Origin: Methanosarcina vacuolata Z-761
GTDB taxonomy: Archaea > Halobacteriota > Methanosarcinia > Methanosarcinales > Methanosarcinaceae
Direction of reading: 5' to 3'
Length of the DNA stretch: 64,000 bases
NCBI RefSeq assembly: GCF_000969905.1
Contig: NZ_CP009520.1
Location: forward strand, 4,340,001 to 4,404,000
How positions within the stretch are numbered: the first letter of the stretch is position 1; each line of letters opens with the position of its first letter. Made by a program: the position numbers and the translations under genes. This document shows positions 5,932 through 48,257 of this stretch, one piece after another. A model generated the notes under the pieces. That model saw only the letters and a list, made by a program, of their open reading frames with translations, did not search any database and had not been told where the DNA came from.

Positions 5932-6669
5932 ATGTTTAAGGCAGCAATTAATGCAGAGCTTCTGAAAGACGCGGTTGCCGCACTAGCTGTAATTGTAGAT
6001 GAGGTCAGATTCAAGATAAACCCGGAAGGTATTTCGGTAAAAGCCGTTGATCCTGCCAACGTTGCAATGGGAATTTTCGAGCTTGGGTCATCTGCTTTCG
6101 ACGAGTATAACGCTGATGAATGTGAAATCGGAGTTGATCTGAACAAGATTATGGACCTGCTGGGAATCGCAGATAAGAACGACACAGTCCGGATGGAACT
6201 TGAAGAAGGGAATCACAAACTTCTGATTGATGTCGGAGGACTGTCTTATACACTCTCTCTTCTCGATCCTTCTACAATTCGGGCAGAGCCAAGAGTTCCA
6301 CAACTTGAATTGCCTGCTAAAGTCGTCCTTAACGGTACAGACCTCAGACGTGCTGTTAAAGCTGCCGAAAAAATAAGCGACCATATGCTCATGGGAGTTT
6401 CGGACGACACATTCTATATGGAAGCAAAAGGCGATACCGACAAGGTTCGTCTCGAGATGGGCAGGGATCAGCTAATCGACCTGAAGGCAGGAGAAGCATG
6501 TTCTCTTTTCTCTCTGGATTATCTGACCGATATAGTCAAACCCACGAATAAAATCAATGAAGTTACTCTTTCCCTTGGAAAAGACTTCCCAATACTCATA
6601 GATTTCGAAATTGCGAACGGTGCAGGAAGGATTTCGTACCTCCTGGCTCCAAGAATTGAGTCGGACTGA
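5932..6669 (+). CDS. pcn: DNA sliding clamp PCNA
   Basis: Homotrimeric processivity clamp for replicative polymerases, ligase and FEN1. The 245-residue protein matches archaeal PCNA along its length: an N-terminal FKAAINAELLKDAVAAL, the SVKAVDPANVAMGIFEL segment of domain 1, the interdomain loop near residues 120-130, and the C-terminal PILIDFEIANGAGRISYLLAPR. A GGAG ribosome site precedes the ATG. The stop codon is one base before the priL start, so clamp and primase large subunit are made together. Confidence 0.95.
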   Translation: MFKAAINAELLKDAVAALAVIVDEVRFKINPEGISVKAVDPANVAMGIFELGSSAFDEYNADECEIGVDLNKIMDLLGIADKNDTVRMELEEGNHKLLIDVGGLSYTLSLLDPSTIRAEPRVPQLELPAKVVLNGTDLRRAVKAAEKISDHMLMGVSDDTFYMEAKGDTDKVRLEMGRDQLIDLKAGEACSLFSLDYLTDIVKPTNKINEVTLSLGKDFPILIDFEIANGAGRISYLLAPRIESD

Positions 6670-6670
6670 A

Positions 6671-7825
6671 ATGGACGAGGAACATATCGCTCTTTACCCA
6701 TTTGCTTCAGAAGTATCTGCTTATGTAGAAAGCCTTAGAGTCTCGCTAGAGAGTTTGCTTAATTCTCCAGCTTTTCGGAGATCTCGAGTTCGCGGGATGG
6801 AAAGAGTAATGCAATCCATCGAAGGAGAGATTGAAAAATCGCTCATAAAAGATGAAAGCTGGCTTCTTTCCGAAACTCTCTCTTATCCTTTTGCTCAAAT
6901 TCTGGTCGCTTGCGTAGATGACCAGTTATTCACCAAACGATACGCACTAAAAGAAGCAGAAGCAGCCTCAAAATGGCTCGAAAAAGAAAGTACTGATTTT
7001 TTGCTTGAATTCGGGGAGGATTTTGGGATTCAAGCAGAAGCTGAAGAGTTACAGTTCAGTATGCATTTTGCAGATTATATACGCTTTTCTTCTTCGATAA
7101 GGGAACCAATATGGAAATTAACAAATCGACAGCTTCGATCCGGAATGGTCGTAGTTATGAAAAAAGACTTTGTAAGACTCCTTCAAGAAGCGATCAAAGA
7201 AAGAATAGAAAAATCATTCCCCATTCCCAAAATCCCTTCTGAAGTATCAAGTTTCTGCGCCCCTTATGTTGCTGAAATAAAAGATAAGTTTGAGGTCCAC
7301 AAGAAAAAATTCGGGACAACGGACTTTGGTGTAGTGGAACCCGAGCTCTTTCCCCCCTGTATATCCCATGCCCTTGCAAACGTACAGGGCGGAGTGAATC
7401 TTGCCCATTCTATGCGTTTTGCCATGACCTCCTTCCTGCTCAGCGTGGGAATGTCAGTGGATGAAATTCTTAACCTTTTCAATGTCTCTCCTGATTTTAA
7501 CGCGGAATTAACCCTTTATCAGATAGAACATATTGCAGGCGCAACAGGAAACGTATACAAGCCTCCTGCATGTGACACTATGAGAACATATGGGAACTGC
7601 ATAGGTAAAGACCGATTGTGTGAAAAAATCAGTCATCCTCTGGCATACTACGAGAAGAAAATATATCTGAGAAATAAAGAAAAAGAAATGGAAAAAGAGA
7701 AGGAAATGGAAAAAGGGAAGGAAAAACAGGAAAAAAAAGAGAAGGGGAAGGAAATGGAAAAAGAGAAGGAAAAACAAGAAGAAAAAGGGAAGGGAAAGGA
7801 AATAGAAAAAGAGAAGAAAAAATAA
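6671..7825 (+). CDS. priL: DNA primase large subunit PriL, with polar repeat tail
   Basis: Non-catalytic large subunit of archaeal primase, which holds a 4Fe-4S cluster and shapes primer synthesis by PriS. The conserved C-terminal domain is clear: SSFCAPYV, the helical GVNLAHSMRFAMTSFLLS segment, YQIEHIAGATG, and CDTMRTYGNC with a further cysteine in RLCEKISHPL, giving four cluster ligands. I start at the ATG at 6671, one base after pcn; the longer frame would overlap pcn. After about residue 335 the protein runs into a tail of Lys/Glu/Met/Gln repeats unlike the family. The purine repeat continues in the same frame past the TAA at 7823. Confidence 0.93.
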   Translation: MDEEHIALYPFASEVSAYVESLRVSLESLLNSPAFRRSRVRGMERVMQSIEGEIEKSLIKDESWLLSETLSYPFAQILVACVDDQLFTKRYALKEAEAASKWLEKESTDFLLEFGEDFGIQAEAEELQFSMHFADYIRFSSSIREPIWKLTNRQLRSGMVVVMKKDFVRLLQEAIKERIEKSFPIPKIPSEVSSFCAPYVAEIKDKFEVHKKKFGTTDFGVVEPELFPPCISHALANVQGGVNLAHSMRFAMTSFLLSVGMSVDEILNLFNVSPDFNAELTLYQIEHIAGATGNVYKPPACDTMRTYGNCIGKDRLCEKISHPLAYYEKKIYLRNKEKEMEKEKEMEKGKEKQEKKEKGKEMEKEKEKQEEKGKGKEIEKEKKK

Positions 7826-7900
7826 GAAGAAAAGAGGAAGGAAATAGAAAAAGAGAAGGAAAAACAAGAAGAAAAGAGGAAGGAAAGGAAAAAGGCATAA
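7675..7900 (+). repeat. Polypurine coding repeat spanning the priL stop
   Basis: Degenerate purine repeat (units like GAAAAAGAGAAGGAAATG) encoding the Lys/Glu tail of PriL and extending 75 bases beyond its stop codon. After the TAA at 7823-7825 the same frame stays open for 24 codons to a TAA at 7898-7900. The copy at the stop reads AAAAAATAAGAAGAAAA, while the later copy reads GAAAAACAAGAAGAAAA, so a single C to T change appears to have made the stop. Confidence 0.85.
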
Positions 7901-8121
7901 AATTAGAAATATTATTAGAAATATTATTAGAAAGATTATAAGAAATATTATAATTATAAAAAGATTTATATCAATTATAGACTATTTTTATTAATTATTG
8001 ATTTGATTGGATAAGATCAATATTCTTTAAGGCCAGCATCAAATTCGTGTGGGAGTTACGCATTTGATTGCACTTATGGTATTTCCTGAAGTTTTCGTGT
8101 AACCTGCATCGGAGGCTTTCA

Positions 8122-9285
8122 ATGCCGCTGGATCCTATTTGTAAAAAAATAATATCTGACAATACTGAGTATTTCTCAGATTATGGGGGAAAGAGCTATT
8201 ATTTCTGCAGTCCCGAATGCAAACAGAAATTCGATGCTCTAGAAAAAAGTGTAATCCGGCTCAAACGGAATCTTAGTGAGAAAGAGAGGATTTCCTTTGG
8301 AAAATTAAAAAAGGACATTATAAAACCAGGAATATGTACTCTATGTGGAGCCTGCGCAGCAAGTTGCGAGTATATTACGATAGAGGACGGCGCACCAAAA
8401 TTGGTAGGCCCCTGTAAAGCCTGTGGGGTCTGCTACTACCAGTGTCCGAGAACCATCACCACAGAAGAGGGACTTATAGGGAGCTTCCGCTTCGCATATG
8501 CAGCAAGATCTGCTATTCCCGAAATAAGGGGACAGGATGGAGGAGTTGTAACATCTCTGCTTTTGTATGCCCTTGATGAGGGTTTAATTGACTCTGCCGT
8601 GGTTACTACTCGCTCAAAGGAAGAGCCCTGGAAACCTGTACCAGTAGTTGCAAAAACAAGGGAAGAGGTCCTTGAGAGTAGCGGCAGCATCTATTCTCAC
8701 TCAATGACGCTTGAAGCTCTTATGAGTGCAATTAAACAGGGGATGAACAGCATTGCGTTCGTAGGGACGAGCTGTAATATTGATGCAGTCACTAAAATGC
8801 AGAAAAGTTCCTATGGATTTCTACATCTCTTCATGAGAGCAAAGGTTCTCAAACTCGGGCTCTTTTGTATGGACACTTTTTCCTATGAAGGAATTAAAGC
8901 AGTACTGAAAAGTTATGGAATTACGCTGGAAAATGTAGATGCCATGAAAATTCGGAAAGGGAAGTTTGAGATTACTCTGAAGGACGGAAAACAACAAATC
9001 CTTGACCTCAGCGAATTTGACGAATACAGAAGCTCTTCCTGTCGTTTCTGTACGGACCTTACTGCCGAAAACTCAGATATCTCTTTTGGCGGAGTTGGCA
9101 GCCCCAGAGGCTGGACTACAGTCCTTACCCGTTCAGCTCTGGGATACGAAATATTCAATGAAGCCGTAGACAACGGTTACATCGAAGCCCGACACCTTAC
9201 CGACGACGAACTTGAAAGAGTACTCAACCTCGCCAAGATGAAGAAAGTCCAAATGTATGACCTCAACAGAAGGCAAAAAAAGTAA
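8122..9285 (+). CDS. F420 hydrogenase/dehydrogenase beta-subunit family protein with YHS domain
   Basis: A 387-residue protein made of three parts. Residues 1-40 form a YHS/TRASH-type metal-binding module (DPICKK, then YYFCSPEC; Cys7, Cys29, Cys33). Residues 70-110 hold two 4Fe-4S motifs (Cys72/75/78/82 and Cys98/101/104/108). The rest is the FrhB/FdhB/FpoF-like F420- and flavin-binding region (EIRGQDGGVVTSLL, FVGTSCNIDAV, SSCRFCTDL). An F420H2- or ferredoxin-linked oxidoreductase activity is inferred; partner and substrate are unknown. A GGAGG site at 8111 fixes the ATG at 8122. It stands alone, with no hydrogenase genes nearby. Confidence 0.85.
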   Translation: MPLDPICKKIISDNTEYFSDYGGKSYYFCSPECKQKFDALEKSVIRLKRNLSEKERISFGKLKKDIIKPGICTLCGACAASCEYITIEDGAPKLVGPCKACGVCYYQCPRTITTEEGLIGSFRFAYAARSAIPEIRGQDGGVVTSLLLYALDEGLIDSAVVTTRSKEEPWKPVPVVAKTREEVLESSGSIYSHSMTLEALMSAIKQGMNSIAFVGTSCNIDAVTKMQKSSYGFLHLFMRAKVLKLGLFCMDTFSYEGIKAVLKSYGITLENVDAMKIRKGKFEITLKDGKQQILDLSEFDEYRSSSCRFCTDLTAENSDISFGGVGSPRGWTTVLTRSALGYEIFNEAVDNGYIEARHLTDDELERVLNLAKMKKVQMYDLNRRQKK

Positions 9286-10864: not shown

Positions 10865-11146
10865 ATGATCACAAAAGAAGATGTAGAACATATCGGCTGG
10901 CTTGCTCGCATTGATATTAGCGAACAGGAAACAGTTGAATACATGGAAAAACTTAATTCAGTGCTGGGGTATTTCGGACAGCTTGACGAGTTGCCGACTG
11001 AAGATGTAGCTCCCACATACCACGTGGCTAAGATTTATAACGTGTTCAGGGATGATGTGGTGGAAGAATGTCTCCCGCAGGAAGTTGTTCTGGAAAACAC
11101 CGAACACAAACAGGACGGAGCCTTCAGGGTTCCGAAGATAGGCTGA
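10865..11146 (+). CDS. gatC: Aspartyl/glutamyl-tRNA amidotransferase subunit C
   Basis: Small subunit (93 residues) that wraps around GatA and stabilises the GatCAB amidotransferase. Family features are the N-terminal ITKEDVEHIGWLARIDIS and the C-terminal FRDDVVEECLPQEVVLENTEHKQ. It is the first gene of a tight gatC-gatA-gatB operon, with gatA starting 12 bases after its stop. Confidence 0.93.
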   Translation: MITKEDVEHIGWLARIDISEQETVEYMEKLNSVLGYFGQLDELPTEDVAPTYHVAKIYNVFRDDVVEECLPQEVVLENTEHKQDGAFRVPKIG

Positions 11147-20340: not shown

Positions 20341-21255
20341 ATGGCAGTTCCAGATTATCAATCCTTAATGCTTCCTCTGCTTAAATATGCAGGAGATGGA
20401 GAAGAGCATAAAATTCGCAATGCTATTGAGCATCTTGCAGAAGAGTTAAGATTAAGCGAAGAAGAAAGAAGAGAACTTTTGCCAAGTGGCCAGCAAGCTG
20501 TATTTAATAACCGTATTGGATGGGCACGTACTTACCTGAAAAAAGCTGGTTTGCTTGCTTCGGGAAGAAAAGGATATTTTTCTATTACCCAGAGAGGACT
20601 GAATGTCCTTAAAGATAATCCTGCATATATTGATGTTAATTTTTTAACTCGATACAAAGAATTTAACGAGTTTCGTCGAGGAAAACAAGTCGAGAATATT
20701 GAGTTAGGCAAAGCCCAAAATAAAACTGAGCAATTAGACCCATGGGAATCTCTTGAACTCTCATACCAACAACTTCACAATGAGCTTGTCTTAGAAATAC
20801 TCTCGGCAGTAAAGAAGTGTTCTCCCACTTTCTTTGAATCTACAGTAATCGATGTCCTGACAAAAATGGGATATGGAGGTTCAAGAGCAGATGCAGGAAA
20901 AGCAGTCGGTAGAAGCCACGACGGTGGGATCGATGGAATCATAAAGGAAGATAGGCTTGGACTTGATGTAATTTATATTCAGGCAAAACGCTGGGAAGGC
21001 ACTGTCCCAAGACCTGAAATCCAGAAATTTGCAGGCGCTCTGATAGGAAAGAAAGCAAAGAAAGGAGTCTTTATAACAACCTCTACTTTTTCAAGAGAAG
21101 CTCTTGAATATGCCAATTTCACAGGGAACATTGTATTGATTGATGGAGAAACGCTTGCAAGACTAATGATTGAGTATGATGTGGGAGTTTCAAAAGTAAA
21201 ATCTTATGATGTTAAAAAGATTGACACGGATTATTTTGATGACGGATTAACGTAA
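20341..21255 (+). CDS. Mrr-type restriction endonuclease
   Basis: A 304-residue protein with an N-terminal winged-helix Mrr_N domain (residues 5-95: LPLLKYAGDGEEHKIRNA, and the RIGWARTYLKKAGLL helix) and a C-terminal Mrr_cat domain. The PD-(D/E)XK core is readable: Glu167 in FFESTVIDVL, Asp198 in HDGGIDGII and Gln214-Ala-Lys216 in YIQAKRW. Such enzymes cut modified (usually methylated) DNA. No methylase or specificity gene is adjacent, so it would act as an orphan type IV system. The ATG at 20341 gives the standard MAVPDYQSLMLP start. Confidence 0.88.
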   Translation: MAVPDYQSLMLPLLKYAGDGEEHKIRNAIEHLAEELRLSEEERRELLPSGQQAVFNNRIGWARTYLKKAGLLASGRKGYFSITQRGLNVLKDNPAYIDVNFLTRYKEFNEFRRGKQVENIELGKAQNKTEQLDPWESLELSYQQLHNELVLEILSAVKKCSPTFFESTVIDVLTKMGYGGSRADAGKAVGRSHDGGIDGIIKEDRLGLDVIYIQAKRWEGTVPRPEIQKFAGALIGKKAKKGVFITTSTFSREALEYANFTGNIVLIDGETLARLMIEYDVGVSKVKSYDVKKIDTDYFDDGLT

Positions 21256-22700: not shown

Positions 22701-22853
22701 TTCTTTTATTCATACTTTTTTTGTTTAGTTTTCCAGGTTTTCCATCTTGATCCTGTTATTCAGATTTTGTTTTATCCGGATTTTAATTCAGTTTATATCC
22801 AACTGCTTTTTTTCTTTAGATTTTATTTACTCTCCCTTCCATATTTTTTGTCC

Positions 22854-23015
22854 GGAATTTCCATGTCCTTTATTTGCTCGGAATTTCCATATCCTTTTTT
22901 TGTCCGGAATTCCATGTCCTTTATTTGCCTGGAATTTCCATGTCCTTTATTTACCCGGAATTTCCATATCCTTTATTTACCCGGAATTTCCATATCCTTT
23001 TTTGCCCGGAATTTT
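22854..23015. repeat. 26-bp tandem repeat, about six copies
   Basis: Head-to-tail units of GGAATTTCCATATCCTTTAT plus six variable bases begin at 22854, 22880, 22906, 22931, 22957, 22983 and 23008. The overlapping frames here encode only repeat peptides and are not genes. The repeat lies between htpX and the thymidylate synthase gene. Confidence 0.9.
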
Positions 23016-48040: not shown

Positions 48041-48257
48041 CGTTATTAATTTACCCATTGATAACTCGTTATTAATTTACCCATTGATAACTCGTTATTA
48101 ATTTACCCATTGATAACTCGTTATTAACTTACCATTGATAACTCGTTATTAATTTACCCATTGATAACTCGTTATTAATTTACCCATTGATAACTCGTTA
48201 TTAACTTACCATTGATAACTCGTTATTAATTCATCCATTGATAACTCGTTATTAAGC
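48041..48257. repeat. 26-bp tandem repeat upstream of hsp20
   Basis: Eight units of CGTTATTAATTTACCCATTG plus ATAACT, two of them 25 bases long, run directly up to the hsp20 start region. The repeat occupies the place where an hsp20 promoter should be, and each unit has an AT-rich TTATTAATTTA core that could resemble a TATA box. There are no spacers, so it is not CRISPR. Confidence 0.92.

Follow-up and report, generated by a model that had tools for sequence, protein, structure and literature searches.

A survey of prokaryote satellites describes them as particularly abundant in Methanosarcina and, for those lying within coding sequences, deals mainly with surface-layer and tetratrico-repeat proteins (PMC6749651). 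The array described here resembles the coding satellites of that survey in having a tandem unit that is a multiple of three and in lying within a gene; the phrase "stop codon" is absent from the same text, and no primase was seen in it (PMC6749651). The gene concerned is priL, for the DNA primase large subunit, and we matched four solved archaeal PriL chains (9f26_B, 5of3_B, 5ofn_B and 1zt2_B); compared with these, the charged tail of 16–83 residues is extra. Two kinds of charged polypeptide offer themselves for comparison with such a tail: the ER/K single alpha-helices, which are very rich in Glu and Lys/Arg and are stabilised by opposite charges spaced at i+4, and the alternating Glu/Lys zwitterionic peptides, whose net charge is near zero.

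The window, that is, the whole stretch of 64,000 nt that was analysed, comes from M. vacuolata Z-761, whose genome (G000) comprises two contigs totalling 4,563,885 bases. The reading frame of priL begins with an ATG (M) at 6671 and ends with KKK, followed by TAA at 7823–7825. Pfam domain PF04104 matches residues 128–321 (E 2.6e-31; 109.4 bits against a curated cut-off of 22.4). Cysteines 230, 301, 310 and 317, and also 196, are invariant among 26 aligned PriL sequences, the first four being those of the Fe-S domain, which presumably include the residues that bind its cluster. The PCNA gene (5932–6669) lies directly upstream of priL, preceded by genes for a TFIIS-type zinc ribbon protein and a NUDIX protein. 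This is the NudF-TFS-PCNA-PriL order reported for Methanosarcinales (PMC2643942). The core is that of an ordinary archaeal PriL. The features of the gene and its 3′ end, all on the forward strand, are as follows:

6671–7825, + strand: priL, DNA primase large subunit, 384 aa including the tail (open reading frame; Pfam PF04104)
7661–7678, + strand: end of the conserved core, IYLRNK (genus-wide similarity just ahead of the tail)
7679–7822, + strand: predicted Lys/Glu tail made of in-frame, purine-rich repeats (sequence and predicted translation)
7718–7765, + strand: repeat copy 1, 48 nt, site codon CAG at 7727 (copy phasing)
7766–7813, + strand: repeat copy 2, 48 nt, site codon CAA at 7775 (copy phasing)
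7814–7855, + strand: repeat copy 3, 42 nt, site codon TAA at 7823, the present stop (copy phasing)
7823–7825, + strand: present stop TAA, probably a former CAA (the other phased copies read CAG, CAA and CAA)
7826–7897, + strand: 24 in-frame codons past the stop, with copy 4 from 7856 and its CAA at 7865
7898–7900, + strand: second in-frame TAA, whose context AAAAGGCATAAAAT resembles the noncoding flank of genome G014 and the working stop of genome G013
7902–7951, + strand: AT-rich 12-nt tandem repeat adjoining the array on its far side (Tandem Repeats Finder)

The phased copies start at 7718, 7766, 7814 and 7856, in steps of 48, 48 and 42 nt, and Tandem Repeats Finder returned overlapping rows with periods of 12, 48 and 90 inside 7676–7895. 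Nineteen of the 20 top autocorrelation lags of the tail array are multiples of three, and its self-identity over lags 24–99 is best at lag 90, where the value of 0.77 (shuffled means, 0.59 and 0.61) was equalled in none of 2,000 base shuffles and none of 2,000 codon shuffles. The array thus has tandem units of ~10–60 nt above chance, and these units are in frame, as in a coding minisatellite. Copies 3 and 4 have the common form AAG AGG AAG GAA, which is six bases shorter than the corresponding part of copy 2. We rejected a phase-variable (contingency) locus, since units of 48 and 42 nt are multiples of three.

The reading that we consider likely is that the mixed-charge tail of PriL is encoded by a coding minisatellite subject to gain and loss of units, and that it was cut by a nonsense mutation at 7823; translation of the tail, and the order and recency of the events, are what we infer from these sequences. 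Whole units (here of 42 or 48 nt) would be gained or lost, shifting tail length and mostly retaining the Lys/Glu frame, and nonsense mutations would trim the tail at the Gln codons of the unit (CAA or CAG), which are one C to T change from a stop; frameshifts and indels in the flank may also shift its end. In the lineage of G000, duplication of a 42-nt unit would have been followed, in one of the copies, by the change from CAA to TAA at 7823, which would have removed that codon and no fewer than the 24 still in frame behind it. As a kind of event, a nonsense cut in the coding minisatellite of a satellite-rich genus is ordinary.

A protein search of 30 Methanosarcina genomes, including G000 and with one genome per species, found PriL in all of them, and in all 30 the core is followed by a charged tail (16–83 residues, median 38.5), which is contrary to the outcomes that would have refuted the original prediction, namely that all relatives end before the repeat or lack it altogether. 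Copy number differs among close relatives at the species level, with tails of 54 residues in G000, 60 in G003 and 83 in G005. In a tree of 29 priL cores, from which G002 was omitted because its priL matched in two stretches (it is kept in the tail counts), G003 and G005 form a pair (support 100/98) that is sister to G000 (100/96). The array ends with GAATAAAATGAAAGAATACAATAAC in G003 and GAAGAAAAGAAAAGAATATAATAAC in G005, and the stretch behind the stop of G014 reads GAAGAAAAAGAAAGAATACAATAAC; comparing these two species with each other and with G014, parsimony makes the stops of G003 (GAA to TAA) and G005 (CAA to TAA) derived. The mutation in G003 would have cost the mutated codon plus the five up to the next in-frame TAA, and that in G005 a single codon. 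Additionally, the string GCGTAAAG is found in G006 and G029 in different frames, giving a stop in one and sense in the other, the tail of G013 ends in a local frameshift and is more basic there, and the first 30 bases past the stop are at least 90% purine in 5 of the 30 genomes. Turnover of the tail end is apparently common within the genus, judging from the derived stops of G003 and G005, the change of frame between G006 and G029 and the purine runs past stops. The proposal that tail length varies by slippage and point mutation therefore stands for the variation in length and for the point mutations, seen as derived stops; for slippage it stands only as one of two processes, since this is inseparable from unequal recombination.

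The 3′ surroundings of priL show some further features. In G004 and G026 (loci L014 and L016) the priL stop is TAG, a codon readable as pyrrolysine in Methanosarcina, and is followed by an unlike repeat; by eye, the next start region in these two genomes resembles that of the window ORF at 10865, from which the FrhB-like gene and those following it would be absent or elsewhere there. A TATA-like sequence, AAAAAGATTTATAT, occupies positions 7958–7971 of the window, and a conserved leader (~8010–8121) precedes the FrhB/FdhB-like gene; both are preserved in several relatives, and the leader has no Rfam match within 7500–8500. The same Rfam scan of 7500–8500 found no RNA element near the 3′ end of priL at E values up to 1.

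The frame in which the tail is read is the one with the lowest net charge in 30/30 genomes, with a mean per residue of −0.02 vs. +0.58 and +0.44 for the two alternative frames. Charge as low was reached in no more than 50 of 1,000 base shuffles for 26 of the 30 genomes, the exceptions, with more than 50 shuffles reaching the observed charge, being G022, G002, G012 and G015 (4/30); the 30 genomes do not amount to 30 independent tests, because frame and composition are inherited and ancestry contributes to the result. The charges also alternate: the share of pairs of opposite charge (Lys/Arg vs. Glu/Asp) at lags 1 to 4 is 0.72, 0.37, 0.63 and 0.38, compared to 0.51 in shuffled tails, and for lags 1 and 3 none of 1,000 shuffles of the 30 tails was as extreme. 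This alternation also holds when the 22 genomes that do not belong to the barkeri clade are taken by themselves, and in a thinner, hand-picked set of 16 genomes, four of them members of that clade; among the clade members the signal at lags 3 and 7 is weaker, 8/500 and 26/500 shuffles, respectively, being as extreme.

Changes by codon position were counted in six close pairs, hand-picked from 20 aligned pairs and after omission of 18 out-of-frame sites (3 + 15). Tail changes amounted to 42/498 at positions 1 and 2 and to 34/248 at position 3 (Fisher p 0.029), and core changes to 94/3,960 and 264/1,980, respectively. At positions 1 and 2 the tail therefore changes faster than the core (odds ratio 3.8), and at third positions tail and core did not differ detectably in the six pairs (p 0.84). 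Over all 20 overlapping pairs there were 66, 62 and 96 changes at positions 1, 2 and 3, and between G003 and G005 there were 4, 3 and 1, with no excess at the third. Nine of the 12 internal gaps in the six close pairs are multiples of three, the rest being of 1, 2 and 4 nt, and frame was kept by 4/6 gaps between G000 and G003 and by 3/5 between G000 and G005; over the 20 overlapping pairs the count is 35/68, which includes distant and unreliable alignments. Taken together, charge by frame, alternation, gap lengths and changes by codon position argue for a weak protein-level constraint on the predicted tail, and not for strong selection.

These data bear on what the tail may be for. A tentative possibility, to which we give rather less than even credence, is that an alternating Glu/Lys tail is selected at the protein level, its pattern being retained genus-wide and its length drifting, gained by units and lost by nonsense mutations often at Gln codons; this replication enzyme would then have a zwitterionic spacer whose length can evolve. 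As to its role, the tail might serve as a soluble spacer or bristle of balanced charge past the Fe-S domain, with composition and alternation perhaps outweighing length. Alternatively, the array might be a minisatellite that evolves neutrally and overlaps the 3′ end of priL by accident, with the tail as a passive by-product under zero selection. The genome does contain many tandem arrays (55 overlapping Tandem Repeats Finder rows in the 64-kb window) and purine tracts that are apparently intergenic, and both the far faster change of the tail than of the core at positions 1 and 2 and the 35/68 frame-keeping gaps over 20 pairs fit such a by-product. We nevertheless regard it as unlikely, because the frame in use is that of lowest net charge in every genome and because G has lag-6 autocorrelations of 0.16 and 0.21 in PriL tails, against a pooled value of −0.03 for 14 purine arrays in G000, taken as noncoding and of mixed periods, 3 of which reach at least 0.39. 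With its low net charge in the frame in use and its alternating charges, the tail is probably not free junk.

Returning to the cut itself, the Lys/Glu repeat had been predicted to continue in frame for 24 codons beyond 7823, and this is exact: the frame stays open for 24 codons, the last being GCA at 7895–7897, up to the second TAA at 7898–7900. This openness alone is not evidence of a former coding sequence, since purine-rich DNA seldom contains stops and two other genes of the genome, presumably RtcA-like and LarB-like, are likewise open past their ends; we dropped it as an argument, and the claim for a cut tail is based on the phase of the repeats and on the comparison of copies. The latter bears out the predicted change of CAA to TAA, as the phased copies read CAG, CAA, TAA and CAA in order. 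Copies 3 and 4 share their shortened form, so that their common source would have carried CAA, and a single C to T change is the simplest reading of how the stop at 7823 arose. In a motif scan of the seven other genomes of the barkeri clade the site carries CAA or CAG alone, the exception being G028, where two CAA are accompanied by that genome's own stop, TAA, elsewhere in the unit. The TAA-bearing copy of G000 was found in none of the other genomes examined, and the history of the codon is read from paralogous copies.

What lay beyond the present stop is complicated by the 3′ flank. The array in the window abuts GCATAAAATTAG / AAAAGGCATAAAATTAG, and a near-identical string is found ~130 bases past the stop of G014, in noncoding flank; in turn, GCA TAA is the working stop of G013. 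Either the flank was lost in G000, and separately in G013, or an extra segment was gained by the others; support is 83/74 at the fork of the tree that is key to this history. The exact former C-terminus is uncertain, because the flank is rearranged and the stop at 7898 lies within the string that is noncoding in G014, yet it follows under either history that the tail was longer before the change from CAA to TAA. The earlier existence of a longer form, as originally predicted, is thereby supported by the CAA source shared by copies 3 and 4, "recent" being a relative term with one genome per species and with copies 3 and 4 differing at too few sites to date the change.

The rearranged flank of this lineage, with its array abutting a string that in G014 lies ~130 bases past the stop, would also suit a different history, in which the stop at 7823 is old and the repeats downstream of it arrived afterwards, as noncoding DNA. 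We hold this to be improbable: copy 4 has both CAA and the form AAG AGG AAG GAA, so that its origin from the TAA-bearing copy requires a reversion, and the copies past 7823 remain in frame. As for a base-call or assembly error, the sequence is that of an assembly and A-rich repeats are error-prone, but with a frame coherent on both sides of the stop and near relatives showing like stops independently, an error at 7823 is very improbable.

The original prediction also placed the tail outside the PriL fold. The Pfam match does stop at residue 321; however, an AlphaFold model built on 26 sequences (mean pLDDT 81.3, pTM 0.60) prolongs the last helix through the tail (residues 323–383), its block confidence dropping from 77 to 55 on the way, so that the domain match agrees with the claim and the model qualifies it. 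The best solved chain reaches residue 340 of the query, about the start of the tail, through a weak second stretch, and the other three extend only to ~192–220. Glu/Lys-rich tails are frequently modelled as helices. The PriL tail is like an ER/K domain in its abundant Glu and Lys/Arg and in the helix of the model, but unlike it in that opposite charges are disfavoured at i+4 (0.38 vs. 0.51 in shuffled tails; 181 opposite and 300 same-charge pairs at lag 4 in the 30 tails) and in its content of ~8% Gly plus Pro. An ER/K single alpha-helix was rejected on account of the i+4 pattern. The tail shares with the alternating Glu/Lys zwitterionic peptides a net charge near zero and alternating charges. 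It differs from them in being natural, known from sequence, and imperfect in its pattern, which includes Gln, Gly and Met. Given the unfavourable i+4 pattern and how often such tails are drawn as helices, we lean towards a loosely helical or disordered spacer.

Charged tracts of this kind are found elsewhere in the genome. A relaxed Lys/Glu pattern gave at least 344 matches in G000 (164 forward and 180 reverse), many of them overlapping; the reversed-pattern control was uninformative because the pattern is identical backwards. We chose 19 purine-tract places among the matches listed and from other scans and inspected their surroundings: five are intragenic (L144, L145, L146, L151 and L154), one is an N-terminal stretch (L155), two have their start where a gene ends or immediately after it (L138 and L143), and eleven lie between listed ORFs or overlap just short ones (≤119 aa). 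PriL is therefore not the sole gene to meet a purine tract; what stands out next to the 19 places is its phased array cut by a stop.

Several of these places have features of their own. At L143 (contig C2, ~347,100) the presumed LarB-like gene ends in a charged tail and an open purine tract continues in frame past its stop, and at L138 (C2, ~20,510–20,562) the TGA stop of the presumed RtcA-like gene is followed by 17 in-frame Lys/Arg/Glu codons and a TAA. On purine tracts, too, are the Lys/Glu-rich N-terminal extension at L155 and the Lys/Glu/Gly stretch at L151, within a gene that we take to be topoisomerase-like. The window also has long clean tandem arrays at 1350–1570, 22844–23014 and 48041–48255, whose units measure 17 nt, and 26 nt (multiples 51, 77).

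No earlier report of the PriL tail was found among the matches listed in our literature search, most subscription journals lying outside its scope; as far as those matches go, a tail that is genus-wide, charge-balanced and charge-alternating, with its length in flux, is new. The C-terminus of a core replication protein would thus turn over between sister species, with gain and loss of units, nonsense mutation and frameshift all visible. The contrast between genus-wide alternation and free length offers a simple test of whether it is the charge pattern or the sequence that is selected in the tail. For annotators, the stops of priL in Methanosarcina would often be non-homologous between species.
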